From Pelecanus crispus (lineage: Eukaryota > Chordata > Aves > Pelecaniformes > Pelecanidae), in the NCBI RefSeq assembly GCF_030463565.1, contig NC_134675.1, positions 18,745,862-18,809,861 on the forward strand: 64,000 bases of DNA, written 5' to 3'. The notes under the pieces were generated by a model. The model had not been told where the DNA came from, did no database searches, and saw nothing but the letters and a program-made list of their open reading frames with translations. Numbering within the stretch: position 1 is the stretch's first letter; every line of letters begins with the position of its first letter. A program made the position numbers and the translations under genes. Below, piece after piece: positions 36,886 through 61,307 of the stretch.

Positions 36886-37160
36886 AGCAGAAATTTCTAT
36901 TGTGTATCAGTGCCAGTATTTTCCCTCTGTTTATTTAACAGAGCTACAGAACATTTCAGTAAATACTGCTTTCTAGTAAAAATACATTTGAAGAGAAGTC
37001 TTGGCTCTCAAAGGAATGTAAAATAAATTTTAGGAGAATTAAAATGTGTGTCTTTCTGCTCTTATAGTGAAAAATAAAGAACCACTAGATATAAGAAACT
37101 TTGATTATAGTGCTCGAAGCTGGACTGGTAAGTCTCCAAAATAATTTTTGATTGACTTGT

Positions 37161-37726
37161 TGTCCTGGTTTCGGCTGGGATAGAGTTAATTTTCTTCCTA
37201 GTAGCAGGCATAGTGCTGTGTTTTGGATTTAGTATGAGAAGAATGTTGATAACACGCTGATGTTTTTAGTTATTGCTAAGTACTGCTCATGCTGGTCAAG
37301 GACTTTTCAGCTTCCCATGCTCTGCCAGGTGCACAAGAAGCTGGGAGGGGGCACAGCCAGAATAGTTGATCCAAACTGACCAAAGGGCTATTCCATACCA
37401 CATGACATCATGCTCAGTATATAAACTGGGGGGGGGTTGGCCGGGGAGCAGTGATTGCTGCTTGGGAACTGGCTGGGTATCGGTCGGCGGGTGATGAGCA
37501 ATTGCATTGTGCATCACTTGCATTGTATATTATTATTATTATTATATTGTTATTATTATCATTATTATTTTACTTTATTTCAATTATTAAACTGTTCTTA
37601 TCTCAACCCAGGAGTGTTTTTTTTCCACTCTTACTCCTCTGATTCTCTCCCCCATCCCATCGGGGTAGGGGAAGTGAGCGAGCGGCTGCGTGGTGCTTGG
37701 TTGCTGGCTGGGGCTAAACCATGTCA
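37161..37726 (+). mobile_element. 5' LTR of provirus A (type 1)
   Basis: TGTCCTGGTTTCGGCTGGGA to GGGCTAAACCATGTCA. Core module at 37375-37417, TATA at about 37418-37424 (AGTATATAAAC), ATT-rich tract at 37529-37565, and ATTAAA near 37586 as possible polyadenylation signal. The terminal ACCATGTCA differs from the usual ACCACGACA. Confidence 0.93.
37375..37425 (+). promoter_or_regulatory. Conserved LTR core with TATA box
   Basis: CTGACCAAAGGGCTATTCCA, then TACCACATGACATCATGCTC, then AGTATATAAAC. Nearly the same module occurs in every long type-1 and type-2 LTR of the window although the rest of type 2 is very different. TGACATCA is a half-variant of a cAMP-response/ATF site. The role is inferred from position. 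Confidence 0.6.
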
Positions 37727-37734
37727 GTTCTTTT

Positions 37735-37752
37735 TGGCGCCCAACGTGGGGC
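37735..37752 (+). other. Primer-binding site, tRNA-Lys type
   Basis: TGGCGCCCAACGTGGGGC, eight bases after the LTR end. It is the complement of the 3' end of tRNA-Lys(1,2)-type primers. The same sequence is at 54724-54741 in provirus B. Confidence 0.88.
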
Positions 37753-37846
37753 ACAAAGGGTTTGAGATAATAACAGATTAACCAGAGTGTATTAAGGAAT
37801 TTGTTGACAGTTGCCGGTCATGATATTAGTTCATCTGATCTGTACC

Positions 37847-39775
37847 ATGTTCTTTTCCTGGCTGTGCATGTTAAAGCTTGGTGTTGGTCTGTGCATTGCA
37901 CTATGCTCTGCAGTGATCAATGATGTTTTGCTTGGGAGGTTCCTTATCGAAATCCTGACCTTGAGCATTGTTTGGTATCTGGGTTTCATACACAAGTCAT
38001 TACTGTACTTTGGGTGCCACCTCATGGAAACAGTTAGCAATTATACCTTTTCCTCGGAGAGGTTTTTTGTGGAGGAAATACAAAATGGCACCTTCATTAC
38101 CTTATTCTATAATGCTTCCTCCCTCATTACAAAAATTTTTCAGTATCTTGAACATCCCTGGGCAGTTAAGATACTTCTATTGATACTTCTTGGGAATATT
38201 GTTTTGGTTTTGACAAAGGTTAGTAAGCGCTTTAAGAATATCATCCAGAGACCTGCCCCAAGGCTGGAGAGTTATGAGTGGCAGGCTGTGTGGGATTGTA
38301 TGGGCAAGTACCTAGGGCAGTGGGCACCTCCAATGTTTTGGAACTTCACCCCTGAACAAGTGCAGAATCCTGAAGAACTAGTAAAGTATTTGGGAAAAGT
38401 ATGTTGTCACCCTGGCAACTCCAGAGAGACACAACTCATTGCAACATGCTGGGGGCTGGCCCATGCTTATAGAGCCCTGTTGAACACTATTCAGTACCCT
38501 CAAGGGAAACAGAGGGTCTCTGGATCGGATGACAAAACAACAGGCACTGCAGCTACTCCAACCACAGCCACGGGCACTGCGGCTACTAGAACCCCCACCA
38601 CAGGTACTGCAGCCACTCCAACCCCAGTGACAGGCACTGTGGCTAAAACAGAGAATCAACCCGCGCCAGTATCAGTTGCCCCTATACAGAAGAAAAAATA
38701 CACGAGAAAATCAGCTCATTTAGTAAGGGATGAAGATGAACCAGGGCCATCACGAGAACCAGAGGAGGAAGAACCCATAAATGAGATGGTAACCACCCAA
38801 TTCCTATCCCTGAGTGAGCTGCGAGATATGCGAAAAGATTTCAGTCGTCATCCAGGCAAGCACATCATCACCTGGCTGCTCCGATGCTGGGATAACGGGG
38901 CCAGTAGCCTGGAATTAGAGGGTAAGGAAGCCAAGCAGCTAGGATCCCTTTCTAGGGAAGGGGGCATTGACAAAGCAATTGGAAAAGGGGCAAAACCGCT
39001 CAGCCTCTGGAGGCGACTTCTGTCAAGCATGAAGGAAAGGTATCCCTTCAAGGAGGATGTTATATATAGCCCAGGCAAATGGACCACCGTAGAGAAGGGT
39101 ATCCAGTACCTGAGGGAATTAGGTGTGCTGGAGGTTATTTATAGTGACCTGAATGATGAGCAGTTACCCAAAGACCCAGATGAAGTCAGGTGCACACGAC
39201 CCATGTGGCGGAAGGTGATACGGAACACACCAGCATCGTATTCCAACTCGTTGGCAATACTGGCCTGGAAAGATGACGAGGCACCAATGGTGGATGAAGT
39301 GGCTGGACGACTCCGGGAATATGAAGAAAGTATCTCTTCATCCCTATGGGCCTGTGTCTCGGCTGTGGAAAAACTGTCTGAAAAAATGTGCCGAGAGTTC
39401 CAACAACTCAGAGGGGATCTGTCCTACTCCCCACCTGCACGGACCAGTGTCTCAGCCATTAGGAGTCAACGTCCCTATGCTCAAGAGAGAGGATATAGAG
39501 GATACACACCACGGGGCACCCTGTGGTTTTACCTGCGTGACCACGGAGAGGACATGAGGAAGTGGGATGGAAAATCCACCTCGACCCTAGAGGCACAGGT
39601 GCATGAGTTGCAAGGAAAAACTATTACAAAAGGTGGTTCTCCCAGGAAAATTGCAGCTCCAGTTTCAAGTGAGCAGTTCCCCAGACAGAGGAGGAGGGCT
39701 AATTCTACTCCCGATCTTAATCAAGGGACTTTTGATTCACATGTACAAGGAGTGAACAACGAATACTATGACTAG
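37847..39775 (+). CDS. gag: gag of provirus A with N-terminal membrane region
   Basis: An open frame of 642 codons from the ATG shared with provirus B; an upstream in-frame ATG at 37820 is absent in B. Residues 4-24 and 32-56 are hydrophobic. Residues 60-100 carry three N-glycosylation sequons (N65, N80, N89), then a third hydrophobic segment at about 106-123 (KILLLILLGNIVLVL). A spacer and a Thr/Pro/Ala 10-residue repeat array (38540-38648) follow, then a basic stretch and a helical region with LRDMRKDF and VEKGIQYLRELGVLEVIYSD. It ends EYYD. No CCHC zinc knuckle is visible. Function as gag is inferred from position ahead of protease; membrane segments at a gag N-terminus are unusual. Confidence 0.82.
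   Translation: MFFSWLCMLKLGVGLCIALCSAVINDVLLGRFLIEILTLSIVWYLGFIHKSLLYFGCHLMETVSNYTFSSERFFVEEIQNGTFITLFYNASSLITKIFQYLEHPWAVKILLLILLGNIVLVLTKVSKRFKNIIQRPAPRLESYEWQAVWDCMGKYLGQWAPPMFWNFTPEQVQNPEELVKYLGKVCCHPGNSRETQLIATCWGLAHAYRALLNTIQYPQGKQRVSGSDDKTTGTAATPTTATGTAATRTPTTGTAATPTPVTGTVAKTENQPAPVSVAPIQKKKYTRKSAHLVRDEDEPGPSREPEEEEPINEMVTTQFLSLSELRDMRKDFSRHPGKHIITWLLRCWDNGASSLELEGKEAKQLGSLSREGGIDKAIGKGAKPLSLWRRLLSSMKERYPFKEDVIYSPGKWTTVEKGIQYLRELGVLEVIYSDLNDEQLPKDPDEVRCTRPMWRKVIRNTPASYSNSLAILAWKDDEAPMVDEVAGRLREYEESISSSLWACVSAVEKLSEKMCREFQQLRGDLSYSPPARTSVSAIRSQRPYAQERGYRGYTPRGTLWFYLRDHGEDMRKWDGKSTSTLEAQVHELQGKTITKGGSPRKIAAPVSSEQFPRQRRRANSTPDLNQGTFDSHVQGVNNEYYD
38540..38648 (+). repeat. 30-bp tandem repeat in gag, about 3 units
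   Basis: In-frame units encoding the pattern GTAATPTPTT. Provirus B has about six units at 55538-55732. Confidence 0.85.
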
Positions 39776-39778
39776 TGT

Positions 39779-39781
39779 TAG
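39779..39781 (+). promoter_or_regulatory. gag-pol junction stop (UAG) in provirus A
   Basis: TAG followed by AGGGGCCC, with pol open in the same frame after it and no ATG near. The equivalent junction exists in provirus B (56862), element C (16685) and element D (33216). In A an additional TAG two codons upstream (39773) comes from CAG to TAG and ends gag early. Confidence 0.65.
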
Positions 39782-42700
39782 AGGGGCCCTGCCTCCAGCC
39801 AGGTGGAGGAAAGGGACAACCGGGTTTCCTGGACTGTGTGGGTTCAATGGCCTGGCACATCAGACCCACAGGAGTATAAAGCTCTAGTGGACACCGGTGC
39901 ACAGTGTACCCTAATGATATCAAGCTATACAGGGGCAGAACCCATTTATATTTCTGGAGGGACAGGGCGATCCCAACAGGTAACTGTACTGGAGGCCAAA
40001 GTGAGCCTAGCTGGGAATGAGTGACAGAAGCACCCCATTGTGACTGGCCCAGAGGCTCCGTTCATCCTTGGCATAGACTACCTCAGGAGAGGGTATTTCA
40101 AGGACCCAAAAGGGTACCGGTGGGCTTTTGGTATAGCTGCTTTGGAGACAGAGGAAATTAAACAGTTGTCCACCTTGCCCGGTCTCTCAGAGGACCCTTC
40201 CATTGTGGGGTTGCTGAAGGTTGAGGAACAACAGGTGCCAATCGCTACCACAACTGTGCACAGGCGGCAATATTGCACCAACCGAGACTCCCTGATTCCC
40301 ATCCATAACCTGATTCGTCGACTGGAGAGCCAGGGAGTGATCAGCAAGACTCGCTCACCCTTTAACAGTCCCATATGGCCAGTGCGAAAGTCTAACGGGG
40401 AGTGCAGACTAACAGTGGACTATCGTGGCCTGAGCGAAGTTACACCGCCATTGAGTGCTGCCGTGCCAGACATGCTAGAACTTCAATACGAACTGGAGTC
40501 AAAGGCAGCCAAGTGCTATGCCACAACTGATATCGCTAATGCGTTTTTCTCCATCCCTTTGGCAGCAGAGTGCAGGCCCCAGTTTGCTTTTACCTGGAGG
40601 GGTGTTCAGTAAACCTGGAATCAACTGCCCCAGGGGTGGAAACACAGCCCCACCATTTGCCATAGACTGATCCAGACGGCACTGGAACAGGGTGAAGCTC
40701 TGAAACACATGCAATACATTGATGACATCATTGTGTGGGGCAATACAGCAGAAGAAGTTTTTGAGAAGGGAAAGAAAATAGTCCAAAACCTTCTGAAGGC
40801 TGGTTTTGCCATAAAACAGAGTAAGGTCAAGGGGCCTGCACAGGAGATCCAGTTTTTAGGAATAAAATGGCAAGATGGACGTCGTCAGATCCCAATGGAT
40901 GTGATCAACAAAATAACAGCTATGTCCCCACCAACTAGCAAAAAGGAAACACAAGCTTTCTTAGGCGTTGTGGGTTTTTGGAGAATGCATATTCCAAATT
41001 ACAGCCAGATTGTAAGCCCTCTCTATCAAGTGACCCAGAAGAAGAACGAATTCAAATGGGGCCCTGAGCAACAACAAGCCTTTGAACAAATTAAACGGGA
41101 GATAGTTCATGCAGTAGCCCTTGGGCCAGTCTCGGCAGGGCAGGATATTAAAAACGTGCTCTACACCGCAGCCGGGGAGAATGGCCCTACCTGGAAGCTC
41201 TGGCAGAAAGCACCAGGGGAGACTCGAGGTCGACCCCTAGGGTTTTGGAGTCGGGGATACAGAGGATCCGAAGCCCGCTATACTCCAACTGAGAAAGAGA
41301 TACTGGCAGCATATGAAGGGGTTCGAGCTGCTTCAGAAGTGGTTGGTACTGAAGCACAGCTCCTGCTGGCACCCCGACTGCCGGTGCTGGGGTGGATGTT
41401 CAAAGGGAGGGTCCCCTCTACACATCATGCAACTGATGCTACGTGGAGTAAGTGGGTTGCATTGATCACACAACGGGCTCGAACAGGAAACCCCAGTCAC
41501 CCAGGAATCTTGGAAGTGATCATGGACTGGCCAGAAGGCAAAAACTTAGAATATCACCAGAGGAGGAGGTGACACGTGCTGAAGAGGCCCCACTGTATAA
41601 TAAATATCCAGAAAACGAGAAGCAATATGCCCTGTTCACTGATGGGTCCTGTTGTCTTGTGGGAAAGCATTGGAGGTGGAAAGCTGCTGTATGGAGTCCT
41701 ATACGACAGTTCGCAGAAACTGCTGAAGGAGAAGGGGAGTCGAGTCAGTTTGCAGAGGTGAAAGCCATCCAGCTGGCTGGCTTTAGGTATTGCTGAATGA
41801 GAAAAGTGGCCAGTCCTTTATCTCTATACTGACTCATGGATGGTGGCAAATGCCCTGTGGGGGTGGCTGCAGCAATGGAAGCAGAGCAACTGGCAGCGTA
41901 GAGGCAAACCCATCTGGGCTGCCGCATTATGGCAAGATATTGCAGCCTGGGTAGAGAACCTGGTTGTAAAAGTTCGTCACATAGATGCTCACGTACCCAG
42001 GAGCCGGGCTACTGACGAACATCAAAACAACCAGCAGGCGGGTCAGGCTGCTAAGATTGAAGTGGCTCAGGTGGATTTGGACTGGCAACATAAGGGTGAA
42101 TTATTTATAGCTTGGTGGGCCCATGACGCCTCAGGCCATCAAGGAAGGGATGCAACATATAGATGGGCTCGTGACCAAGGGATGGACTTAACTATGGAGA
42201 GTATTGCACAAGTTATTCATGCATGTGAAACATGCGCTGCAATCAAGCAAGCCAAGCGGTTCAAGCCCCTTGGGTATAATGAACGACGGCTGAAATATAA
42301 ATATGGGGAGGCCTGGCAGATTTATTATATCACGCTCCCACAAACTCGCCAAGGCAAGCGCCATGTGCTCACCATGGTGGAAGCAACCACCGGATGGTTG
42401 GAAACATATCCCGTGCCCCATGTCACCACCCGGAACACCATCCTGGGCCTTGAAAAGCAAGTCCTGTGGCAACATGGCACCCCAGAAAGAATCGAGTCAG
42501 ACAATGGGACTCATTTCCGAAACAACCTCATAGACACCCGGGCCAAAGAGCACGGCATTGAGTGGGTATATCACATCCCATACCATGCACCAGCCTCGGG
42601 GATAATCGAGCGATACAATGGACTGTTAAAGACTACCCTGAGAGCAATGGGTGGTGGGACATTCAAACATTGGGATACACATTTGGCAAAAGCCACCTGG

Positions 42701-42970
42701 TTAGTCAACACTAGGGGATCTGCCAATCGAGCTGGCCCTGCCCAATCAAAAGTTCTACGTACTGCAGAAGGAGATAAAGTCCCTGTAGTGCACATAAAAA
42801 ATATGCTGGGGAACACAGTCTGGGTTACTCCTGCCTCAGGCAAAGACAAACCCATTCATGGGATTGTTTTTGCTCAAGGACCTGGGTGCACTTGCTGGGT
42901 GATGAGCAAGGATGGGGAAGTCCGATGTGTACCTCAAGGGAATTTGATTTTGGGTGAAAATAGCCAATGA
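39782..42970 (+). pseudogene. pol: pro-pol of provirus A, damaged
   Basis: Protease with ALVDTGAQCTLM, then ILGIDYLRRGYFKD, RT with the first Asp in TDIANAF, PQGWKHSPTI and YIDDIIVWG, connection, RNase H with ALFTDGSC and YTDSWMVANALWG, integrase zinc region (HDASGHQGRD...CETCAAIKQ) and core. Lesions: TGG to TGA at 40022, TAC to TAA at 40610, a 1-base loss near 41545, an insertion plus TGA near 41780-41795, and WQIYYITL instead of WQIDYITL in integrase (first catalytic Asp lost). The C-terminus is intact to 42970 and is longer than in B. Protease, RT, RNase H and integrase order is normal. Confidence 0.93.
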
Positions 42971-43451
42971 ACTGAATTGTATGATATTAATTGCTATATA
43001 ATACTGTATGTTATCTCTTATTGTATGTTATCTCTTAACTGTATGTTAATGTAATAATACAGTATAATGTTAATATAATAATATAGTCTGTTAATGTTAA
43101 GTATATAGTACTGTATGTTATGGTTGCTATATGCCATATCAATGGTATTACAGTGAGAACTGCCCAGCTTAATGGAAATGAACTTTGATGAAACCGTGTT
43201 GGAATGAGAACTGGCTTCAGCATGCAACCATCCAACACTGCACTCCATCTCTCCTGCTCTGAAAGACAGATGGAACCCAAAGTCATGGGCTAAATGAACT
43301 CACTGGACATTGTAGAGGGATGGGCCATAGACGAAGGGAATGATATCTGTGTGTATATCAAGATAGGGAAAGCGGTGGTGATTAATTAGAACACATTGGA
43401 GAGGGGAGGGCCTGTGCATGACGTAGATGGTATAGAATAAGGGGTGGATAC
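42971..43451 (+). other. 3' non-coding region of provirus A
   Basis: About 480 bp between pol and the 3' LTR, where other retroviruses have env. It begins with AT-rich short repeats (TGTATGTTATCTCTTA twice, 43007-43040) and ends with GAATAAGGGGTGGATAC just before the LTR, a possible short polypurine primer. No coding frame. Provirus B has the same region at 60001-60518. Confidence 0.75.
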
Positions 43452-44016
43452 TGTCCTGGTTTTGGCTGGGATAGAGTTAATTTTCTTCCTAGTAGCGGGC
43501 ATAGTGCTGTGTTTTGGATTTAGTAGGAGAAGAATGTTGATAACACGCTGATGTTTTTAGTTGTTGCTAAGTACTGCTTATGCTGGTCAAGGACTTTTCA
43601 GCTTCCCATGCTCTGCCAGGCGCACAAGAAACTGGGAGGGGGCACAGCCAGAATAGTTGATCCAAACTGGCCAAAGGGCTATTCCATACCACATGACGTC
43701 ATGCTCAGTATATAAACTGGGGGGGGTTGGCCGGGGAGCAGCGATCGCTGCTTGGGAACTGTCTGGGTATCGGTCGGCGGGTGATGAGCAATTGCATTGT
43801 GCATCACTTGCATTGTATATTCTTCTTCTTATTATATTGTTGTTATCATCATTATTATTTTACTTTATTTCAATTATTAAACTGTTCTCATCTCAACCCA
43901 GGAGTGTTTTTTTTCCACTCTTACTCCTCTGATTCTCTCCCCCATCCCATATGGGCAGGGGGAGTGAGCGAGCGGCTGCGTGGTGCTTGGTTGCTGGCTG
44001 GGGCTAAACTACGACA
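43452..44016 (+). mobile_element. 3' LTR of provirus A (type 1)
   Basis: TGTCCTGGTTTTGGCTGGGA to GGGCTAAACTACGACA. A perfect TGACGTCA palindrome (ATF/CREB site) is at 43694-43701, where most other copies have TGACATCA. Confidence 0.93.
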
Positions 44017-44094
44017 CTGGTGCAGGAAGAATTTTCCCAAGAGTCCAAATCCTGCTTTTGAAAAGGTTCCAGTTGGAAAATATTGGAAATGTAG

Positions 44095-44865
44095 GTATGT
44101 ATTTGCTATGAACTTTACATTTTACTTCTGGTTAATTTAAAAATACATATGCTGGGTACTTCTGTCTTGTCATGTTGATCTAGATTTATATGAATATAGT
44201 ATGTTTAACCTAAACCAATTTTTTTAGTCTACCAGGGAGGTATTTCACTCCGGGTAGCTCTGCAAAAGTAATGCTTAGGCTGTAAACTATGGCAAAAATA
44301 AGTTTCTAGTGAATGATCCCTTAAAGAAAGGATTAGCTTTTAATTCTGTACTGCTGACTGAAATGTTCTGAAGCACATTACTTCTGTGAGATAAATTTGG
44401 ACAATTAACTTCTGGTATTCTCATTCGAAGTAATATATTAAATCGTAGGTTTTAAGCATATGAATACCAAAACCCATTTTGGGATTGTTTAAAATAAAGC
44501 AGAAATTAGAAATTTGTGTGAAAGCTACCATAAGTTTGTAACCAAAACAGTGCAATATCAGTGATTTTTAAGTTTATTCTAGAAAATGAGTCTATAATAT
44601 AGTGGTATAAAGTAGAATATTATAATGTACAAATAAAATATACATGGCATTGCAAATGAGTAATGTTTCTTAAAGGAAACAAGTAAAAGGGAAAACCTGT
44701 TAAAAGCTACTAACTATTTAAACATACTGATCCCCCAAGAATATGAGACATTTGGCTGCTGGTCTGGCTGGCACATATCTGTTAATGACCTACTGAGATG
44801 CCTGTTTAACTGTCATCTCAGTCAGTGCCAAGTAGTTACAACCACACAAACAAATACTTAGTCCT
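44095..44865. other. Probable DHX29 intron, inverted block
   Basis: AT-rich single-copy sequence directly after the split DHX29 exon. I searched the plus strand for the next DHX29 exon (RVI-KSEDD region) and did not find it. Confidence 0.45.
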
Positions 44866-45471
44866 TGTATTGGGTCTGGCTGGGATGGAGTTAATCTTAC
44901 CCATAGCAGCCCTCATAGTGCTGTACTTTGTATTGGTAGCTAGAAAGGTGTTGGCAACACACCATTGTTTTGGCTACTGCTGAGCAGTGCTCCCACAGCA
45001 TCAAGGCTGTCTCTTCAACATTTCCCCCCCTCACCAGTAGGCTGAGGGTGGATGAGACCTTGGGAGGGGACATAGCCAGGACAGCTGACCCAAACTGACC
45101 AAAGGGATATTCCATACCATATGATGTTGGCTCAGCAATAAAAGCTGAGAGAAAGGAGGAGGAAGGTGGGGCATTTGTTATTACGACATTTGTCTTCCGG
45201 AGCAACCACTACGCGTACTGAAGCCCTACTTCTCAGGAAGTGTCTGGACATCGCCTACTGATGGGAAGTAGAAAATAAAATCTTTGTTTCCTTTTGGTTT
45301 TTTGCTTCTGCACGCAGCCTTTGCTTTTGCTTTTTTTTATTAAACTGCCCTTATCTTATCCCACAAGGTTTTTTTTCCATCTCATTTTCTCCCCACCAGT
45401 CCTGCTGAGGAGGGGAGTGACAGAGCAGCTTGGTGGGCACCTGGCATCCAGCCAAGGTCAAACCAACCACA
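44866..45471 (+). mobile_element. LTR type 2, plus orientation, followed by a PBS
   Basis: TGTATTGGGTCTGGCTGGGA to CAAACCAACCACA, 606 bp, with the shared core (CTGACCAAAGGGATATTCCA) and CAATAAAAG as TATA-like element. It is the inverse partner of 34136-34734. A primer site and leader follow, so it was a 5' LTR. Confidence 0.92.
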
Positions 45472-49635: not shown

Positions 49636-50110
49636 TGTTGCAAATGGGTGATTTAGGACACTTAAAGAATCATCAACAAAGGCATTAGTAAAAGTGGTTT
49701 TAATATGATGTTGTAAAAGTGCGACTTAACAAAGTTCAAGGGCAAGGTTCACTATTAATTACTGCATGGAAGAATTATACAAAGGAAAATTGAGTTACAC
49801 TCGAGTTAGCTGCACCTAAGCTCCATCGGGAGTTTAGAAAGCAAGGGGGTTTACTCTGAACCTCGTGACTCAATGGGAGGATCTTCCTTACTTTTTGTAT
49901 TTCTTCCATTAGACATAAACCGTTGTCCAAGTCTGACAAGATTGGACCTGGTTGCACCTAAGCTCCGTCAGGAGTGTAGAAAGCAAGGGGGTCTACTCCG
50001 AATCTCGTGACTCAACGGGAGGGACCTCCTTACCTTTTTGTGTCCCCAGTTTCTCTATGAATCAGTCTAACTGATAGATAGATCTTAACACTTGAACAAT
50101 AACAACTGCT
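49636..50110 (-). mobile_element. 5' LTR of element E (type 6)
   Basis: Starts TGTTGCAAATGGG on the plus strand, immediately next to the Ser-type PBS. Contains two ~80-bp direct repeats (49811-49890 and 49953-50034, each TGCACCTAAGCTCC to CCTTAC). Related to the LTR at 10627. The right end is not sharply defined. Confidence 0.7.
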
Positions 50111-50532
50111 GTAAAGGGAAAAAACAAAACAAAACAAAAACAACTTTTGCAAGAAATCTTTTAGATTTCTAGGTTTAAGATTCAACAACCACAGAAATCA
50201 AAACACTAAAAGTACGCAAGGCAAACTTAAACCCACACAAGTACATAGACTGCCAACTGTAAATAAACAGAATGAACCCATTCCAGGAGAAAATTAAGCT
50301 ATGATTTACCACAAGAATGAACTACAAAAAGTCTTCCAGAATTCACATGAAAAAAACGTTACCTTCAAATAACCATTCCACTGAAGTTAAAATAATGTGG
50401 GTGACCATTATTAAGCATATCATCTTTTCAGGAGTTTTCCACATCAGTGTTGAAGTCAATGCAAGTCCTGTATTTTGGAAAACTTCGTCCTCTCTTCCCT
50501 CCAAGTAAATACAAATTAATTTCCCAGATTAC
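50111..50532. other. Probable DHX29 intron
   Basis: Single-copy AT-rich DNA between the element E LTR and the next DHX29 exon; no feature seen. Confidence 0.4.
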
Positions 50533-50675
50533 CTTAGTTTCAGGGCCATTTTCTTTCTTTTTGTTATCTACTAAGCGAGATGGAAGTTCACGTGTCACAG
50601 GAGAACAAAATTTTGCTCTAGGTTTCTGTTGCTGTTCTTCAAACTGCTGGCAAGGCAAACCTTCAGGCAAGGCAT
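50533..50675 (-). pseudogene. DHX29: DHX29 N-terminal exon
   Basis: 143 bp with acceptor TTATTTTGAAG and donor ACTAAG/GTAATC on the minus strand. It encodes ALPEGLPCQQFEEQQQKPRA then KFCSPVTRELPSRL, matching the DHX29 segment DALPEGF...FEEQQPKSRPKFQSP just after its UBA-like N-terminal domain. The frame is open and the splice sites look good. Minus strand, in the original orientation relative to MTREX at the right. Confidence 0.9.
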
Positions 50676-51063
50676 CTTCAAAATAAAAAGGCCATATCAC
50701 AGAATGTCAATAATAATTACTTAAAATCTTTTTAAGTGTGTTGGGAGCCAACTAGAAGAACATAAAACAAAAACAGCATGCCTGAAATAAAGTTAGGCTT
50801 TAGCATTTAGATAAGTCAGCATTTGCTTGTTGGATTTCCATAAAACTCTAAGAGTAGGAAGAAGAGGACTACAAGACTTTATACATAAAAAAAAAAAAAT
50901 CACAGAACCAGTCAGCAGCACATCTAGGAAAAGAACACTGTGATGACTACTGGTCTTAATGAAACAATATATTTAATTACTACTATGAAGCATTCCCATG
51001 TCATAGTAGGTCCTATTACTCTTCTGTTAAAAACTGTAGTCAATTCTTTGTCACCATACTCGC

Positions 51064-51133
51064 TGTCAGGAAGGTTTAAACAAAGCCAATCAAGTGCAGA
51101 GTGAAGATCACTACCATATTTTACTTGAAATAA
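51064..51133 (-). pseudogene. DHX29: DHX29 exon with UBA-like motif, donor changed
   Basis: The minus strand encodes KYGSDLHSALDWLCLNLPD, the end of the UBA-like domain of DHX29 (GGDLHSALDWLCLNL). The donor reads GC (CCTGACA/GCGAGT) where GT is expected; a G to A change at the exon end would also alter the joined codon. The left part of the exon (ALQAFSFKTKD region) is not recognisable, so the 5' boundary at TTTCAAG is tentative. Confidence 0.82.
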
Positions 51134-51728
51134 AAGAATTCATTCCTTATTGCAGAGAAGGCCCATTTACATCTTCAAGGAAATTTTGTATGTCAATGGA
51201 ACTACTGTAAGGAAATAAATAATTCTACCAGAAAGAACAAGGCATTTTTCCTCAGCTTACAAGAACTGGTATAAAATAATTTGATCATCAAAATATGATG
51301 TGACACACTTCTTCCTATCTGGCTTAAAAAAATAATCCAGACATCATAATTTTAGTATTTTTAACACTTCTAAAACACAAACCAAGCTTAGGTTGCTACT
51401 GAGGTGGTTGTATAAAATCTGTTTTCTTCCTCTGACAGGAAGAAGGGTCTATATGCACAGCAGAATCCCAAATATAACTCTTTATAGTCCTGCATGCAAT
51501 ATATCATTTGTTACTTTAGAAATATAGATGTTCTCCTGCCCTGTTAGTTTACCCCTATTTCTTAAAGCACACTCAAAATCCCAAACACCTCAAGCTCAAG
51601 AGAGTCAATGTCTAATACATGAATGTAGCTTACCTGCATAACTTAATACTTATACCTGAAGAAATATTTACTCAGCTAAAAAAAGTACTATGAAAACCAA
51701 AGCTGTTTTACCTAAAGAAGATACTCAC

Positions 51729-51802
51729 CTTAAGAACAGATTTATCTAGATTTGAAGCAGCACTGGAATCTGTTGTTGAACTACAACTGTAAGTTTTTGG
51801 AC
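51729..51802 (-). pseudogene. DHX29: DHX29 early exon
   Basis: 74 bp bounded by AATTTGCAG acceptor and CTTAAG/GTGAGT donor. It encodes GPKTYSCSSTTDSSAASNLD then KSVLK, matching DHX29 GPKIYSFNSTNDSS...NLDKSILK. It is the most 5' DHX29 exon in the window; the first exon with the start codon is missing. Confidence 0.88.
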
Positions 51803-52269
51803 CTGCAAATTACAAATAACCATCAATTACATAAGCAGAACACAGAGAACATTAATTACAATAGCTAAAGCAAACCAAACATAATGCAGATTAATGCGGG
51901 CAAGTATTACACTAATTTGCCAGAGACACACACACATACATAACAACAATAAAAATAATCAATGGTACAGAGAGACCCTTGAACAAGGAATAGCAAAGAA
52001 GGGTATGACTCTTAGCAGACAAAATGTAAAATCACGAGTGGCACAATGAGAGGAAATGTAATTGACTGCTCGCTCACTCTCAACCCAGAAACAAGAAGTG
52101 CCAAATAGGGAAGCTAATGGCAGGTTCAAAACAAACAAGAGTGATTTTTTTTTTAATTTTATTTTTTTTATTGCCAAGTGCATAGATACATAACAGAACT
52201 CTTTGCTGCTAAAGGTGTGGATATTGGGTGTTTACCTAAGTCCAAGGGCAGACAGGATAGCTTTGTAGT

Positions 52270-53407
52270 TGTATTGGGTTTGCGTGGCAAGGTTTTGGGA
52301 GCAGAGGGGCTGCAGGGGTGGTTTCTGTGAGAAGGTGCTAGAAGCTTCCCCTATTTCTGATAGAGCCAATGCCAGCCGGCTCCAAGACAGACCCATTGCT
52401 GGCCAAGGCTCAGCCAATCAGCGACGGTGGTAGTACCTCTGTGATAACATATTTAAGAAGTGGGGGGAAAACTGCACAACAGAAATAGCAGCCAGAAGAG
52501 AGGAGTGAGAATATGTGAGAGAAATAACTCTGCAGACACCAAGGTCAGTGAAGAAGGAGAGGGAGGAAGTGCTCCAGGGGCACTGCAGATTCCCCTGCAG
52601 CCCATGGTGAAGACCATGGTGAGCCAGGCTGTCCCCCTGCAGCCCATGGAGGTACACGGTGGAGCAGATATCCACCTGCAGCCCATGGAGGACCTCACAC
52701 CAAAGCAGGTGGATGTGCCCGAAGGAGGCTGTGACCCTGTGGGAAGCCCGTGCTGGAGCAGGCTCCTGGCAGGACCTGTGGACCCGTGGAGAGAGAGGAG
52801 CCCACGCTGGAGCAGGTTTGCTGGCAGGATTTGTGACCCCATGGGGGACCCATGCTGGAGCAGTCTGCTCCTGGACTGCACCCCGTGGAAGGGACCCACG
52901 CTGGAGCAGTTCCTGAAGAACTGTAGCCCATGGGAAGGACCCACATTGGAGAAGTTAATGGAAGACTGTCTCCCGTGGGAGGGACCCCACACTGGAGCAG
53001 GGGAAAAGTGTGAGGAGTCCTCCCCTGAGGAGGAAGGAGCAGCAGAGACAATGCGTGATGAACTGACAGCAACCCCCATTCCCTGTCCCCCTGTGCCGCT
53101 CAGGGGGAGGAGGTAGAGAATTTGGGAGTGAAGTTGAGCCTGGGAAGAAGGTAGGGGTGAGGGGAAGGTGTTTTAAGATTTGGTTTTATTTCTCATTACC
53201 CTACTCAGTTCTGGTTGGCAATAAATTAAACTGATTTTCCCCAAATTAAGTCTGTTTTGCCTATGACAGTAATTGCTGAGTGATCTCCCTGTCCTTATCT
53301 TGACCCACGAACGTTTTTATGTTTTCTCTCCCCTGTCCAGTTGAGAAGGGGAGTGATAGAGTGGCTTTGGTGGGCACTTGGCATCCAGCCAGGGTCAAAC
53401 CACCACA
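52270..53407 (+). mobile_element. Solo LTR (type 3, ORF-bearing), longest open frame
   Basis: TGTATTGGGTTTGCGTGGCA to CAGGGTCAAACCACCACA, 1138 bp. TATTTAAG at about 52451. It occupies most of the gap between the first DHX29 exon present and the first MTREX exon present, where both gene starts should be. Target duplication unclear (TGTAG occurs near both ends but not flush). Confidence 0.9.
52460..53116 (+). CDS. Repeat-rich open frame inside type-3 LTR, extended version
   Basis: A 218-codon frame, GTG-led. Order: basic start, [46 protein letters not shown], then about four units of the pattern C-x-PW-x-GP-x-LE, and an acidic end (EESSPEEEGAAETM). Compared with the 17.8- and 24.3-kb copies a single T is missing after the SSP codons, which removes the stop and adds 35 residues. 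No match recognised; see the 17.8-kb entry for doubts about translation. Confidence 0.35.
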   Translation: MGGKLHNRNSSQKRGVRICERNNSADTKVSEEGEGGSAPGALQIPLQPMVKTMVSQAVPLQPMEVHGGADIHLQPMEDLTPKQVDVPEGGCDPVGSPCWSRLLAGPVDPWRERSPRWSRFAGRICDPMGDPCWSSLLLDCTPWKGPTLEQFLKNCSPWEGPTLEKLMEDCLPWEGPHTGAGEKCEESSPEEEGAAETMRDELTATPIPCPPVPLRGRR

Positions 53408-53490
53408 ACCTGTAGCAAATATGCTGCCAAATAGAGACTGGGAGAAAAATAACATTTTTTTTCTTTCCTGTTCCTTCACTGTTCTTGCAG

Positions 53491-53525
53491 GGACATCAGT
53501 TCATCTCATATCATGAGACTTGTTA
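53491..53525 (+). pseudogene. MTREX: MTREX exon remnant with small deletion
   Basis: After a strong acceptor (CACTGTTCTTGCAG) the sequence GACATCAGT then TCATCTCATATCATGA can be laid on the MTREX segment GDVTINPTASCLVMTTE with loss of 15 bp (INPTA). The expected donor is gone (CTTGTTAGA). Position and orientation ahead of the next exon are right. Short match, so moderate confidence. Confidence 0.5.
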
Positions 53526-53710
53526 GATTCAACTTGGAAAGCACCTCAACAGCCAATCTTTAAATGCTTTTGAGTTTTGTGCAAAATAAGATTTCATATT
53601 GCCATATAAATGTCAACCAAAAATTCCGGCAATTTCTTAGTGATATCTCTGTAACATGACTGTTGTTACTTCATGTGATGGATCTCAGTATTTGTTTTTT
53701 CCTTTTCTAG

Positions 53711-53801
53711 ATTTTGAGAAGTATGCTCTACAGAGGTTCTGAGGTTAGGCGAAACGTCGCATGGGTTATTTTTGATGAAATCCACTACATGAGAGATTCA
53801 G
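53711..53801 (+). pseudogene. MTREX: MTREX exon with helicase motif II (DEIH)
   Basis: 91 bp between TTTTCTAG and ATTCAG/GTATCC. It encodes [20 protein letters not shown] then [10 protein letters not shown]. This is RecA domain 1 of the Ski2-like RNA helicase MTREX (MTR4, SKIV2L2), the exosome-associated helicase of nuclear RNA decay; DEIH is motif II. Two residues differ from the near-invariant vertebrate sequence (MRE to RRN), which is unusual for this protein. The exon itself is open with good splice sites. Confidence 0.93.
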
Positions 53802-54144
53802 GTATCCTAGATGTACAATTTTTCTTTTCAAATCTTTTCTTTTTTTTTCAAGAACAAAAAACATTTCTTTTAAAGAATTAAGTCTTTATTCTCTGTCTTA
53901 AAGTCTGTCATCATTGTGCATGAATAATTCAGAATTTGTTTTCTACTGAATGTATGAAATAGTTATTGTGTGTCACGGTCTGCATTTTCTTTGCCAAGGC
54001 AAAAGCCACTGGCATTTGTGTATACATATAGGGGAGGCTTTTTTTAAGTTTTTGTTTTATTTTGTCTTTAAGCATGCTGTTCTTTGGTCTTTTTCCATTT
54101 TCAGAATGTGGTGTGGTTTGAGAAGAGACAATTATTTTGCTCAC

Positions 54145-54715
54145 TGTCCTGGTTTCGGCTGGGATAGAGTTAATTTTCTTCCTAGCAGCAGGCATAGTGC
54201 TGTGTTTTGGATTTAGTAGGAGAAGAATGTTGATAACACGCTGATGTTTTTAGTTGTTGCTGAGTACTGCTTATGCTAGTCAAGGACTTTTTCAGCTTCC
54301 CATGCTCTGCCAGGCGCACAAGAAACTGGGAGGGGGCACAGCCAGAATAGTTGATCCAAACTGACCAAAGGGCTATTCCATACCATATGACATCATGCTC
54401 AGTATATAAACTGGGGGGGGGTGGCCAGGGAGCAGCGATCGCTGCTCGGGAACTGTCTGGGTATCGGTCGGTGGGTGGTGAGCAATTGCATTGTGCATCA
54501 CTTGCTTCGTGTATCATTATTATTATTATCATTATTATACTGTTACTATTAGCATTACTATTTTACTTTATTTTAATTATTAAACTGTTCTTATCTCAAC
54601 CCAGGAGTGTTTCTCACTCTTACTCCTCCGATTCTCTCCCCCATCCCATCGGGGTAGGGGGAGTGAGCGAGCGGCTGCGTGGTGCTTAGTTGCTGGCTGG
54701 GGCTAAACCACGACA
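54145..54715 (+). mobile_element. 5' LTR of provirus B (type 1)
   Basis: TGTCCTGGTTTCGGCTGGGA to GGCTAAACCACGACA. Core module and TATA at 54361-54410, ATT-rich tract at 54515-54560, ATTAAA near 54578. Confidence 0.95.
54361..54410 (+). promoter_or_regulatory. Conserved LTR core with TATA box, provirus B
   Basis: CTGACCAAAGGGCTATTCCA, TACCATATGACATCATGCTC and AGTATATAAA, the same module as in provirus A and the type-2 LTRs. Confidence 0.6.
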
Positions 54716-54723
54716 GTCCTTTT

Positions 54724-54741
54724 TGGCGCCCAACGTGGGGC
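54724..54741 (+). other. Primer-binding site, tRNA-Lys type
   Basis: TGGCGCCCAACGTGGGGC, eight bases after the LTR end, identical to provirus A. Confidence 0.9.
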
Positions 54742-55537
54742 CCGAAGGGTTTGAGATAACAACAGATTAACTAGAGTGTATTAAGGAGTCTGTTAACAGT
54801 TGCCGGTCACGATATTAGTTCATCTGATCTGCACCATGTTCTTTTTTTTTCAGCACGCGTTAAAGCTTGTTGTTGGTTTGTGTAGTGTGCTATGCTCTGC
54901 AGTGATTCATGATCTTTTGCTTGGGAGGCTCCTTATCAAAACCCTGACCTTGAGCATTCTTTGGTATTTGGGTTTCATACAGAAGTCACTACTGTACTTC
55001 GGGTACTACCTCATAGAGAGAGTTAGCAACTATACTTCTTACTCTGAGAGGCTTGTTGTGGAGGAAATACAGAATGGCACCTTTGCTGCTTTCTTCTATG
55101 ATGTTTCCTCCTTCATTACAACAACTTTCCAGTATCTTGAACACCCTTGGGCAGTTAAGGTACTTCTATTGATACTTCTTGGGAATGTTGTTTCCATTTT
55201 GATAAAGGTCAGTAAGCAGTTTAAAAATATCATCCAGAGATCTACCCCAAGGCTAGATAGTTATGAGTGGCAGGGTGTGTGGGATCGTATGCGCAAGTAC
55301 CTAGGGCAGTGGGGACCTCCAGTGTTTTGGAACTTCACCCCTGAACAAGTGCAGAATCCTGAAGAATTGTATTTGGAAGTATTTGGAAGAAGTATGTTGT
55401 CACCCTGGTAGCTCCAGAGAGACACAAATCATTGCAACATGCTGGGGACTGGCCCATGCCTATCGAGCCGTGGTCAACACTAATCAGTACCCTCAAAAGA
55501 AAGAGAAGGTCTCTGGATCTGATGACAAAACAACAAG

Positions 55538-55732
55538 CACTGTCGCTACTCAAACCCCCACTACAGGCCCTGCGGCTACTCCAACCCCCACTACAGGCCT
55601 TGCAGCTACTCAAACCCCTGCCCCAGGCACTGTGGCTACTCCAGCCACAGCCATGAGCACTGCGGCTACTCAAACCACAGCCATGGGCACTGCGGCTACT
55701 CAAACCCCAGTGACAGACACTGCGGCTAAACC
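55538..55732 (+). repeat. 30-bp tandem repeat in gag, about 6 units
   Basis: In-frame units of the pattern AATQTPTTGT. Provirus A has about three. Confidence 0.88.
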
Positions 55733-56861
55733 AGAGAACCAACCTGCGCCGGTATCAGTTGCCCCTATACAGAAGAAAAAATACACGAGGAAATCAGTTC
55801 GTTTAGTAAGGGATGAAGATGAACCAGGGCCATCACGAGAACCAGAGGAGGAAGAACCCATAAATGAGATGGTGACCACCCGATCCCTATCCCTGAGTGA
55901 GCTGCGAGATATGCGAAAAGATTTCGGTCGTCATCCAGGCGAGCACATCATCACCTGGCTGCTCCGATGCTGGGATAACGGGGCCAGTAGCCTGGATTTA
56001 GAGGGTAGGGAAGCCAAGCAGCTGGGATCCCTTTCTAGGGAAGGGGGCATTGACAAAGCAATTGGAAAAGGGGCAAAACCGCTCAGCCTCTGGAGGCGAC
56101 TTCTGTCAAGTGTGAAGGAAAGGTATCCCTTCAAGGAGGATGTTTTATACCGCCCAAGCAAATGGACCACCGTAGAGAAAGGTATCCAGTACCTGAGGGA
56201 ATTAGGCGTGCTGGAGGTGATTTACAGTGACCTGAATGATGAGCAGTTACCCAAAGACCCAGATGAAGTCAGGTGCACACAACCCATGTGGCGGAAGGTG
56301 GTACGGAGCGCACCAGCATCGTATTCCAACTCGTTGGCAATACTAGCCTGGAAAGACGACGAGGCACCAACGGTGGATGAAGTGGCTAGACAACTCCGGG
56401 ACTACGAAGAAAAGCTCTCTTCCTCCCTACGGGCCTGTGTCTCGGCTGTGGAAAAACTGTCTGAAAAAATGTGCCAAGAGTTCCAACAACTCAGAGAGGA
56501 TCTGTCCTACTCCCCACCTGCACGGACCAGTGTCTCAGCCATTAGGAGTCAACGTCCCTATGCTCAAGAGAGAGGATATAGAGGATACACACCACGGGGC
56601 ACCCTGTGGTTTTACCTGCGTGATTATGGAGAGGACATGAGAAAGTGGGATGGAAAACCCACCTCAACCTTAGAGGCACGGGTGCGTGAGTTGCAAGGAA
56701 AAACTATTAGAAAAGGCAGTTCTCCCAGGAAAATTGCAGCTCCAGTTTCCAGTGAGCAGTTCCCGAGACAGAGTAAGAGGGCTAATTTTACTTCCGACCT
56801 TGATCAGGGGACTTTTGATTCACATTTACAGGAAGTGAACAGCGAATACTGTGACCAGTGT

Positions 56862-56864
56862 TAG
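56862..56864 (+). promoter_or_regulatory. In-frame UAG at the gag-pol junction of provirus B
   Basis: Gag ends at TAG and pol continues in the same frame for 671 codons without a nearby ATG. The downstream context AGGGGCCCTGCC is conserved in A and C and nearly so in D. This fits termination-suppression expression of Pol, as is known for gammaretroviruses. Confidence 0.65.
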
Positions 56865-58877
56865 AGGGGCCCTGCCTCCAGCCAGGTGGAGGAAAGGGAC
56901 AACCAGGTTTCCTGGACTGTGTGGATTCGATGGCCTGGAACATCAGACCCACAGGAGTATAAGGCTCTAGTGGACACTGGTGCACAGTGCACGCTAATGC
57001 CATCAAACTATAGAGGGGCAGAACCCATCTGTATTTCTGGAGTGACAGGGGGATCCCAACAGCTAACTGTACTGGAAGCTGAAGTGAGCCTAACTGGGAA
57101 TGAGTGGCAAAAGCACCCCATTGTGACTGGCCCAGACGCTCCGTGCATCCTTGGCATAGACTACCTCAGGAGAGGGTATTTCAAGGACCCAAAAGGGTAC
57201 CGGTGGGCTTTTGGTATAGCTGCTTTGGAGACAGAGGAAATTAAACAGTTGTCCACCTTGCCCGGTCTCTCAGAGGACCCTTCGATTGTAGGGTTGCTGA
57301 AGGTTGAAGAACAACAGGTGCCGATCGCTACCACAACTGTGCACAGGCGGCAATATTGCACCAACCGAGACTCCCTGATTCCCATCCATAACCTGATTCG
57401 TCGACTGGAGAGCCAGGGAGTGATCAGCAAGACTCGCTCACCCTTTAACAGTCCCATATGGCCAGTGCGAAAGTCTAACGGGGAGTGCAGACTAACAGTG
57501 GACTATCGTGGCCTGAGCGAAGTTACACCGCCACTGAGTGCTGCCATGCCAGACATGCTAGAACTTCAATACGAACTGGAGTCAAAGGCAGCTAAGTGGT
57601 ATGCCACAATTGATATTGCTAATGCATTTTTCTCCATCCCTTTGGCAGCAGAGTGCAGGCCCCAGTTTGCTTTTACCTGGAGGGGTGTTCAGTACACCTG
57701 GAACCGACTGCCCCAGGGGTGGAAGCACAGCCCCACCATTTGCCATGGACTGATCCAGACAGCACTGGAACAGGGTGAAGCTCCAGAACATCTGCAGTAC
57801 ATTGATGACATCATTGTGTGGGGCAACACAGCAGAAGAAGTTTCTGAGAAGGGAAAGAAAATAGTCCAAATCCTTCTGAAGGCTGGTTTTGCCATAAAAC
57901 AGAGTAAGGTCAAGGGGCCTGCACAGGAGATCCAGTTCTTAGGAATAAAATGGCAAGATGGACGTCGTCAGATCCCAATGGATGTGATCAACAAAATAAC
58001 AGCTATGTCCCCACCAACTAGCAAAAAGGAAACACAAGCTTTCTTAGGCGTTGTGGGTTTTTGGAGAATGCATATTCCAAATTACAGCCAGATCGTAAGC
58101 CCTCTCTATCAAGTGACCCAGAAGAAGAACGAATTCAAATGGGGCCCTGAGCAACAACAAGCCTTTGAACAAATTAAACGGGAGATAGTTCATGCAGTAG
58201 CCCTTGGGCCAGTCTCGGCAGGGCAGGATATTAAAAACGTGCTCTACACCGCAGCCGGGGAGAATGGCCCTACCTGGAAGCTCTGGCAGAAAGCACCAGG
58301 GGAGACTCGAGGTCGACCCCTAGGGTTTTGGAGTCGGGGATACAGAGGATCCGAAGCCCGCTATACTCCAACTGAGAAAGAGATACTGGCAGCATATGAA
58401 GGGGTTCGAGCTGCTTCAGAAGTGGTTGGTACTGAAGCACAGCTCCTGCTGGCACCCCGACTGCCGGTGCTGGGCTGGATGTTCAAAGGGAGAGTCCCCT
58501 CTACACATCATGCAACTGATGCTACATGGAGTAAGTGGGTTGCATTGATCACAAAACGGGCTCGAATAGGAAACCCCAGTCGCCCAGGAATCTTGGAAGT
58601 GATCATGGACTGGCCAGAAGGGAAAAACCTTAGAATATCACCAGAGGAGGAGGTGACACGTGCTGAAGAGGCCCCACTGTATAATAAATATCCAGAAAAT
58701 GAGAAGCAATATGCCCTGTTCACTGATGGGTCCTGTCATCTTGTGGGAAAGCATTGGAGGTGGAAAGCTGCTGTATGGAGTCCTATACGACAAGTCGCAG
58801 AAACTGCTGAAGGAGAAGGGGAGTCGAGTCAGTTTGCAGAGGTGAAAGCCATTCAGCTGGGCTTTAGATATTGCTGA
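56865..58877 (+). CDS. pol: Protease, reverse transcriptase and most of RNase H of provirus B
   Basis: An open frame with aspartic protease (ALVDTGAQCTLM), ILGIDYLRRGYF, RT domain (catalytic Asp in TIDIANAFFSIPL, LPQGWKHSPTI, YIDDIIVWG), connection ([15 protein letters not shown]) and the start of RNase H (ALFTDGSC, SSQFAEVKAI). All catalytic motifs up to there look intact, so this is the best preserved retroviral enzyme region in the window. The frame is lost in RNase H just before the YTDSW motif. The motif style (SPTI, YIDD) resembles ERV-L/class III and gamma-like pol; exact class needs a tree. Confidence 0.92.
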   Translation, partial: RGPASSQVEERDNQVSWTVWIRWPGTSDPQEYKALVDTGAQCTLMPSNYRGAEPICISGVTGGSQQLTVLEAEVSLTGNEWQKHPIVTGPDAPCILGIDYLRRGYFKDPKGYRWAFGIAALETEEIKQLSTLPGLSEDPSIVGLLKVEEQQVPIATTTVHRRQYCTNRDSLIPIHNLIRRLESQGVISKTRSPFNSPIWPVRKSNGECRLTVDYRGLSEVTPPLSAAMPDMLELQYELESKAAKWYATIDIANAFFSIPLAAECRPQFAFTWRGVQYTWNRLPQGWKHSPTICHGLIQTALEQGEAPEHLQYIDDIIVWGNTAEEVSEKGKKIVQILLKAGFAIKQSKVKGPAQEIQFLGIKWQDGRRQIPMDVINKITAMSPPTSKKETQAFLGVVGFWRMHIPNYSQIVSPLYQVTQKKNEFKWGPEQQQAFEQIKREIVHAVALGPVSAGQDIKNVLYTAAGENGPTWKLWQKAPGETRGRPLGFWSRGYRGSEARYTPTEKEILAAYEGVRAASEVVGTEAQLLLAPRLPVLGWMFKGRVPSTHHATDATWSKWVALITKRARIGNPSRPGILEVIMDWPEGKNLRISPEEEVTRAEEAPLYNKYPENEKQYALFTDGSCHLVGKHWRWKAAVWSPIRQVAETAEGEGESSQFAEVKAIQLGFRYC

Positions 58878-60000
58878 ATGAGAAAAGTGGCCAGTCCTTT
58901 ATCTCTATACTGACTCATGGATGGTGGCAAATGCCCTGTGGGGGTGGCTGCAGCAATGGAAGCAGAGCAACTGGCAGCGCAGAGGCAAACCAATCTGGGC
59001 TGCCGCATTGTGGCAAGATATTGCTGCCCGGGTAGAGAACCTGGTTGTAAAAGTTCGTCATGTAGATGCTCATGTACCTAAGAGTCGGGCCACTGAAGAA
59101 CATCAAAACAACCAGCAAGTAGATCAGGCTGCTAAGATTGAAGTGGCTCAGGTGGATCTGGACTGGCAACATAAGGGTGAATTATTTATAGCTCGGTGGG
59201 CCCATGATGCCTCAGGCCATCAAGGAAGGGATGCAACGTATAAATGGGCTCGTGATCGAGGGGTGGACTTAACTATGGACAGTATTGCACAGGTTATTCA
59301 TGAGTGTGAAACATGCGCTGCAATCAAGCAAGCCAAGCAGTTCAAGCCCCTCGGGTATAGTGAACGATGGCTGAAATATAAATATGGGGAGGCCTGGCAG
59401 ATTGATTACATCACACTCCCACAGACCCGCCAAGGCAAGCGCTATGTGCTCACCATGGTGGAAGCATCCACTGGATGGCTGGAAACATATCCCGTGCCCC
59501 ATGCCACCACCCGGAACACCATCCTGGGCCTTGAAAAGCAAGTCCTGTGGCGACATGGCACCCCAGAAAGAATCGAGTCAGACAATGGGACTCATTTCCA
59601 AAACAACCTCATAGACACCTGGGCCAAAGAGCATGGCATTGAGTGGGTATATCACATCCCTTACCATGCACCAGCCTCCGGGAAAATTGAGCGATACAAT
59701 GGATTGTTAAAGACTACCCTGAGAGCAATGGGTGGTGGGACATTCAAACATTGGGATACACATTTAGCAAAAGCCACCTGGTTAGTTAACACCAGGGGAT
59801 CTGCCAATCGAGCTGGCCCTGCCCAATCAAAACTTTTACGTACTGTAGAAGGAGATAAAGTTCCTGTAGTGCACATGAAAAATATGCTGGGGAAGACAGT
59901 CTGGGTTACTTCCCCCTCTGGCAAAGGCAAACCCATTCGTGGGATTGTTTTTGCTCAAGGACCTGGGTGCACTTGGTGGGTGATGCGAAAGGATGGGTAA
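58878..60000 (+). pseudogene. pol: RNase H end and integrase of provirus B
   Basis: The open part 58921-60000 carries YTDSWMVANALWGWL, the HHCC zinc region (HDASGHQGRD...CETCAAIKQ), the core triad in WQIDYITLP, IESDNGTHF and ASGKIERYNG, and a C-terminal domain ending early at a TAA (59998) where provirus A reads on for 17 residues. All three catalytic acids are present. The link to the upstream frame is broken by one extra G in the CTGGGCTTTAG stretch and by the TGA in GAATGAGAA, the latter shared with provirus A. Confidence 0.9.
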
Positions 60001-60518
60001 GTCCGATGTGTACCTCAAGGGAATTTGATTTTGGGTGAAAATAGCCAATGAACTGAATTGTATGATATTAATTGCTATATAATACTGTATGTTATCTCTT
60101 AACTGTATGTTATCTCTTAACTGCATGTTAATATAATAATATATTAGGTTAATATTAAGTATATAATACTGTATATTATGATTGCTATATGCCACATCAG
60201 TGGTATTGCAGTAAGAATTGCCCAGCTTAATGAAAATGAACTTTGATGAAACCATGTTGGAATGAGAACTGACTTCAGCATGCAACAGTCCAACACTGCA
60301 CACCACCTCTCCTGCTCTGAAAGACCGTGATGACAGATGGAACCCAAAGTCATGGGCTAAATGAACTCAATGGACATTTTAGAGGGATGGGCCATAGACG
60401 AAGGGAATGATACCTGTGTGTATATCAAGATAGGGAAAGCGGTGGTGATTAATTGGAACACATTGGAAAGGGGAGGGCCTGTGCATGACGTAGATGGTAT
60501 AGAATAAGGGGTGGATAC
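60001..60518 (+). other. 3' non-coding region of provirus B
   Basis: Counterpart of 42971-43451: AT-rich TGTATGTTATCTCTTAAC repeats at 60086-60125, then sequence ending GAATAAGGGGTGGATAC before the LTR. No env. Confidence 0.75.
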
Positions 60519-61089
60519 TGTCCTGGTTTTGGCTGGGATAGAGTTAATTTTCTTCCTAGCAGCAGGCATAGTGCTGTGTTTTGGATTTAGTAGGAGAAGA
60601 ATGTTGATAACACACTGATGTTTTTAGTTGTTGCTGAGTACTGCTTATGCTAGTCAAGGACTTTTTCAGCTTCCCATGCTCTGCCAGGTACACAAGAAAC
60701 TGGGAGGGGGCACAGCCAGAATAGTTGATCCAAACTGACCAAAGGGCTATTCCATACCATATGACATCATGCTCAGTATATAAACTGGGGGGGGGTGGCC
60801 AGGGAGCAGCGATCGCTGCTTGGGAACTGTCTGGGTATCAGTCGGCGGGTGGTGAGCAATTGCATTGTGCATCACTTGCTTCGTGTATCATTATTATTAA
60901 TATCATTATTATACTGTTACTATTAGCATTACTATTTTACTTTATTTTAATTATTAAACTGTTCTTACCTCAACCCAGGAGTGTTTCTCACTCTTACTCC
61001 TCCGATTCTTTCCCCCATCCCATCGGGGTAGGGGGAGTGAGCGAGCGGCTGCGTGGTGCTTAGTTGCTGGCTGGGGCTAAACCACGACA
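60519..61089 (+). mobile_element. 3' LTR of provirus B (type 1)
   Basis: TGTCCTGGTTTTGGCTGGGA to GGCTAAACCACGACA, 571 bp, followed by the duplicated CTCAC. Confidence 0.95.
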
Positions 61090-61307
61090 CTCACTCAAAA
61101 TATCCATTATGTGTTCCTTTCTGCAACGATTCGAAATGCCCATCAGTTTGTTGAATGGATTTGCCATCGTCACAAACAGGTAATATTTCTGATGTGATAT
61201 ACCTCCACCCTTGTACTCTTGTGACATAATACTGTCTCTTCAGTTGATGAGAACTGGACTTTTGAGCCTCTTTTTAGTCATCTTATTATTGCTTATAAAT
61301 GATGGTA

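Follow-up and report, generated by a model that had tools for sequence, protein, structure and literature searches.

The 64,000-nucleotide stretch analyzed here (the window; C45:18745862-18809861, within the 1.31-Gb Pelecanus crispus genome) very probably belongs to a bird W chromosome on which DHX29 and MTREX persist as degenerate copies – and on which two ERV proviruses, A and B, very probably landed in exons of these genes after coding constraint had been lost. Read in this way, a striking pattern becomes a dated sequence of events. With Z and W copies in one genome, the target-site duplication records, like a small fossil, the state of the exon at insertion, and the pseudo-exons provide a clock that shares its chromosome with the LTR clock. 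A question can then be asked gene by gene on the W or Y: do ERVs kill genes, or do they settle in dead ones?

Proviruses within DHX29 and MTREX exons

We observed that provirus A (37161..44016, + strand) lies between the two parts of a single DHX29 exon. The 5' part (37068..37160, +) starts at aa 357 and includes one target copy (37156-37160); the 3' part (44017..44094, +) runs to aa 411 and includes the other (44017-44021). Provirus B (54145..61089, +) occupies an equivalent position in the MTREX exon encoding aa 260-302, between a 5' part (54105..54144, +; target copy 54140-54144) and a 3' part (61090..61179, +; target copy 61090-61094). The initial annotation had placed these elements in the same two exons and in the sense orientation of each, and its boundaries match ours within a base. 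It had further predicted that the exon halves would rejoin once the proviruses were removed. Consistent with this prediction, we found that the flanks joined across A form one frame (DHX29 aa 357-411) with one stop, and that the flanks joined across B form one frame (MTREX aa 260-302) with one stop. The AG and GT borders are kept in both cases, and both target exons are uninterrupted on C46, the contig that carries the homologous locus. A PDB comparison of the 31-residue exon before B returned MTR4 chains (best E 6.9e-13).

Both elements have the features of an ERV provirus: paired LTRs (37161-37726 and 43452-44016 in A; 54145-54715 and 60519-61089 in B), TG...CA ends, and a target-site duplication, which in A contains one mismatch. 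Each carries RT, RNase H, and integrase pieces. A domain scan of seven open stretches from A and B returned matches to these domains in five, while the two long first frames had no family match in the same scan. The best PDB match of the A/B pol is Pr125Pol (7o0h, 1.8e-45), with RT p80 (4hkq, 4.4e-45) almost level. We take 7o0h to be a foamy-virus enzyme and 4hkq a murine-type enzyme. Membership in ERV class III (spuma-like, ERV-L), for which pol should lie nearer to spumaviruses than to gammaretroviruses, is at most a candidate assignment.

The two proviruses had also been thought to be tied together by inner UAG codons. A UAG does end the first long frame in both copies. Because A and B have different target duplications and different ages, and because their LTRs are K2P 0.060-0.072 apart, we read this codon as a feature of the family that establishes no link between the two insertions. 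The differing target duplications and ages also led us to reject the possibility that A and B are duplicates of one insertion. A third, more diverged provirus-like stretch is present at 30399-34135 (-), with an A/B-family LTR at 30399-31009 and an LTR2-type LTR at its other end.

Putative Z and W copies of the gene pair

SPIN1 is a classical avian Z-W gene. In a search of the P. crispus genome, a human SPIN1 query produced three exon matches on C45 (22.2 Mb) and three on C46 (86.8 Mb). On the basis of this single paired gene and the contig sizes, we take C45 to be the putative W and C46 the putative Z, so that location of the window's DHX29 and MTREX copies on a sex-limited chromosome is indicated indirectly. 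SPIN sexing markers are named in the title of an earlier paper (PMC9140868). As a control for a retained W gene, we compared the two SPIN1 copies and found that 19 of 705 coding sites differ. C45 would therefore be able to keep genes under selection – and DHX29 and MTREX are not among them.

A complete homologue with a common gene order, as expected for the partner of a degenerate W gametolog, is present on C46. DHX29 is covered there by 26 matched stretches (aa 1-1363, with gaps that total 9 residues of the human query) and MTREX by 27 (aa 1-1042, with gaps that total 27 residues). The genes are arranged head-to-head, with DHX29 on the - strand, MTREX on the + strand, and first exons ~460 bp apart. 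Three of the 27 MTREX stretches overrun a stop, each at an exon edge where the match departs from the human sequence or an adjacent stretch takes over, and we read these stops as intron rather than lesions. Searching the genome with DHX29 identified C46 and one stretch of C45 (74%); the other matches listed (34 of 210 candidates scored) are 30-58% identical, a level that other helicases would be expected to give.

The copies on C45 are fragmentary. The DHX29 3' remnant (23496..29520, -; aa ~1032-1357) was identified by tblastn, contains deletions, and is collinear with C46:20537232-20547321; a solo LTR whose ends could be read lies inside it (24295-25404). A DHX29 5' remnant (50075..52269, -; aa 63-217) was identified by tblastn and by its match to C46. 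The MTREX remnant (53408..64000, +; tblastn) contributes aa 231-335 within the window and runs on past the window end. At least partly mapped on C45 are 11 of the 26 DHX29 stretches and 16 of the 27 MTREX stretches, a count from which MTREX aa 882-919, present twice on C45, is missing because doubly covered C46 stretches were filtered out. At 28652-29021, the DHX29 exon encoding aa 1018-1100 stops at an LTR fragment of the A/B family, and the next 1.9 kb of Z sequence is gone.

Both copies carry disabling lesions, with stops in exons of both genes, indels, and missing exons. Premature stops are found at aa 277 and 381 of DHX29 and at aa 266, 405, 575, and 665 of MTREX. We gave less weight to a stop at DHX29 aa 1279, which is close to an exon edge, and rejected one at MTREX aa 308 as a lesion, as it lies beyond the exon's splice donor. 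Introns are retained in the W copies of DHX29 and MTREX, and we thus rejected the idea that they are processed pseudogenes.

Degenerate Y/W gametologs have a complete partner on the Z, while the W copy accumulates stops, indels, deletions, and TE insertions. The locus described here shares each of these properties, though it differs from degenerate gametologs in general in concerning one particular head-to-head pair, in which LTRs border a deletion and an inversion. Among the papers listed in a search of one literature collection (20 of 119), none of those on sex chromosomes registered a hit for DHX29, SKIV2L2, or MTREX.

We infer that the W copy descends from an ancestral Z-W pair. An unlikely though not negligible alternative is that a later transposition brought the segment from the Z to the W, where it decayed. 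Noncoding divergence between W and Z is K2P 0.150 over 9,411 sites at the window locus (0.13-0.15 as a range), less than the 0.212 at SPIN1 (3,122 of 4,196 sites aligned), and Z-to-W transpositions are known from songbirds (Xu et al. 2020, PMC7692361). The transposed region on the songbird W resembles the present locus in being a large DNA copy of Z genes that is decaying. However, the lower divergence is explained no less well by a younger evolutionary stratum, and C46 matches extend ~80 kb past the right end of the window (the extent fetched), with gaps and rearrangements. Moreover, in the portion of PMC7692361 available to us, the birds-of-paradise region is recent and has no detected TE insertions, whereas the locus here is TE-rich and more diverged – a weak argument, since that region is much younger.

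Loss of constraint and the order of insertions

To order the insertions relative to the loss of constraint, the initial annotation had called for dating by LTR divergence. The LTR pair of A differs by K2P 0.046 and that of B by 0.018, corresponding to per-copy divergences of 0.022 and 0.0088. For comparison, we made a conservative count of changes on the W branch at 851 codons where C46 equals human, with some tblastn stretches entering introns by a few codons. There are 124 amino-acid differences between W and Z, 94 of them W-derived, 8 Z-derived, and 22 ambiguous. The 94 W-branch replacements over 2,018 nonsynonymous sites give a rate of 0.0466 (95% interval 0.038-0.057), which is 2.1x the per-copy LTR divergence of A and 5.3x that of B, with the caveat that gene conversion between LTRs would make A and B appear too young. 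Both differences are significant in a binomial comparison (P = 3e-4 for A and 6e-10 for B; 7e-4, two-sided, for A when one intronic codon is left out). The rate thus exceeds the LTR divergence of both proviruses, and constraint would therefore have been lost before either insertion, in agreement with the earlier proposal that the region lacked coding constraint when they landed. Two MTREX exon stretches on C45 are without replacement: aa 303-335 (33 codons compared with C46) and aa 882-917 (identical to human).

The target-site duplications provide a second line of evidence. Both copies at B read CTCAC, as previously annotated, versus CTTCC on C46, a difference of two W-only changes, one of which replaces a proline shared by the Z and human with threonine. 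As both copies share these W-only changes, the changes predate the duplication, and the MTREX exon was already mutated when B landed. The duplication at A had been given as two copies of CTTGT, and this required correction: its 5' copy reads CTTGT and its 3' copy CTGGT. Since the C46 site also reads CTGGT, the 5' copy probably mutated from CTGGT to CTTGT after insertion. With its unchanged copy identical to the Z, the duplication at A bears no sign of an earlier mutation.

These results suggest a sequence in which recombination with the Z stopped and the W copies of a complete head-to-head Z pair lost coding constraint. The W copies would then have gathered stops, indels, deletions, an inversion, and many ERV insertions. 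A and B would represent independent integrations of the same ERV family into exons that purifying selection no longer guarded, which is why they would never have been removed. Available parts of Peona et al. (2021, PMC8310711) describe the avian W as an ERV refugium; that study counts elements, while here the order of insertion and constraint loss is read at single exons.

The initial annotation had also raised the possibility that the insertions helped kill the genes. Either insertion alone would destroy its exon, but inactivation of the W copies of DHX29 and MTREX by the exonic insertions themselves is highly improbable. The LTR ages of A and B would account for fewer replacements than the W shows (by factors of 2.1 and 5.3), the duplication at B holds an earlier replacement, and the other lesions, namely a 9.2-kb deletion (described below), the missing exons, and the stops, would have been enough alone. 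Most likely, the insertions did not kill DHX29 and MTREX and instead settled in dead genes. Slightly less probable again is that the window holds a duplicated pseudogene pair located on an autosome or on the Z, and not on the W. Segmental duplication also yields degenerate extra copies of gene pairs, but SPIN1 has matching copies on C45 and C46, and LTR families taken from the window are far more extensive in the C45 stretch than in its C46 counterpart – though the choice of families, being C45-derived, is biased.

We next considered whether exonic, sense-oriented hits exceed chance expectation, restricting the counts to clean insertions (at least 250 bp, with those accompanied by deletion or rearrangement left out). 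Within the window, two of five clean insertions are in coding sequence versus 0.68 expected (P = 0.14; coding sequence is 13.6% of mapped host bases). Across both genes and their C45 continuation, the count is three of ten versus 0.77 expected (P = 0.037; coding 7.7%), a comparison made after the hits had been seen. The third exonic hit, outside the window, is a solo LTR of ~1.06 kb (window-relative 88783-89841) in the MTREX exon encoding aa 661-684, with TG...CA ends and the duplication GAGTG. It belongs to another family than A and B, and no sequence of the window matches it at E 1e-5. For two of two exonic proviruses to be in sense has a chance probability of 0.25.

The pair of exonic sense insertions had been presented as an anomaly, a view that these counts, with no clear statistical excess in the window, do not sustain. 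Least plausible of all is that the A/B family targets exons in sense orientation: both exonic copies are in sense, and a third DHX29 exon ends at a same-family LTR fragment (28726) on the - strand, the gene's sense there, but coding insertions within the window are not in clear excess, LTR1 matches occur in both orientations (20 of 36 stretches on + across 184 kb of C45), and the third full exonic hit matches none of the window's repeats. We accordingly rejected an exon-targeting or sense preference, as the insertion counts give it no clear support; no exon preference is needed to explain the exonic hits. The observation of exonic ERVs at this locus is true, and it is ordinary W-chromosome decay. 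On a sex-limited chromosome, an exonic ERV in sense orientation is by itself no sign of anything unusual.

LTR-bordered rearrangements and neighboring sequence

The DHX29 part that contains A and the MTREX remnant are both on the + strand. Because the pair on C46 is head-to-head, this arrangement is abnormal, and we attribute it to an inversion of ~34.7-44.9 kb and reject it as the native gene order. The inverted block (34735..44865, +) comprises DHX29 aa 261-411 and provirus A, and matches at 34744-44866 run opposite to C46. It is flanked by two LTR2-type LTRs, one at 34136..34734 (-) and one at 44866..45471 (+), whose 5' ends form its left and right borders, respectively. C46 matches end at most 10 bp from the 5' ends of these two inverted copies, which differ by K2P 0.115 (a few adjoining bases included). 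Recombination between inverted LTRs would also exchange their target duplications; here one flank of the inversion (GTCCT) matches C46, while the outer flanks were not found.

An LTR3-type LTR (52270..53407, +) with TG...CA ends and non-matching flanks marks a deletion junction. Its flanks match C46 sites 9.2 kb apart (C46:20560293-20569494), and the deleted sequence includes DHX29 exon 1, the shared 5' region, and MTREX to ~aa 231. The element resembles a product of LTR-LTR recombination – the origin of solo LTRs described in Peona et al. (2021, PMC8310711) – in having both LTR ends and no internal part. Unlike an ordinary solo LTR, its flanks are 9.2 kb apart on C46, as expected if two separate elements recombined. 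We infer that recombination between LTRs made both the inversion and the 9.2-kb deletion.

A bolder proposal, which we consider rather doubtful, is that DHX29 and MTREX were silenced in one step, when a single recombination between two W-specific LTR3 elements took out their common 5' region and left the LTR at the junction as a scar; the exonic ERVs, including A and B, would have arrived later. If true, genes on this part of the W would have been killed by ERV-ERV recombination and not by exonic insertion. The W replacement rates of DHX29 and MTREX are 0.0595 and 0.0401, respectively (P = 0.063 for the difference), and a common date of death for the two genes is possible but not favored.

We made several additional observations on the surrounding sequence. 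Positions 1-23495 of the window have no match to the expected C46:20500001-20537231 in our filtered match list. This region contains many LTRs and repeats with reverse-transcriptase frames (from a Pfam scan that covered 81 of 254 open stretches lying outside A and B), which are presumably CR1-like. Stretches 2599-3964 and 61311-62683 share 94.7% identity. Beyond the window, C45 contains a palindrome (window-relative 92175-97020 and 99864-104709) with 4.85-kb arms that are 99.94% identical (one mismatch, two gaps) and separated by a 2.8-kb spacer; arm-to-arm conversion or recent duplication likely accounts for this identity. Each arm holds the MTREX stretch aa 882-917, which is 100% identical to human.
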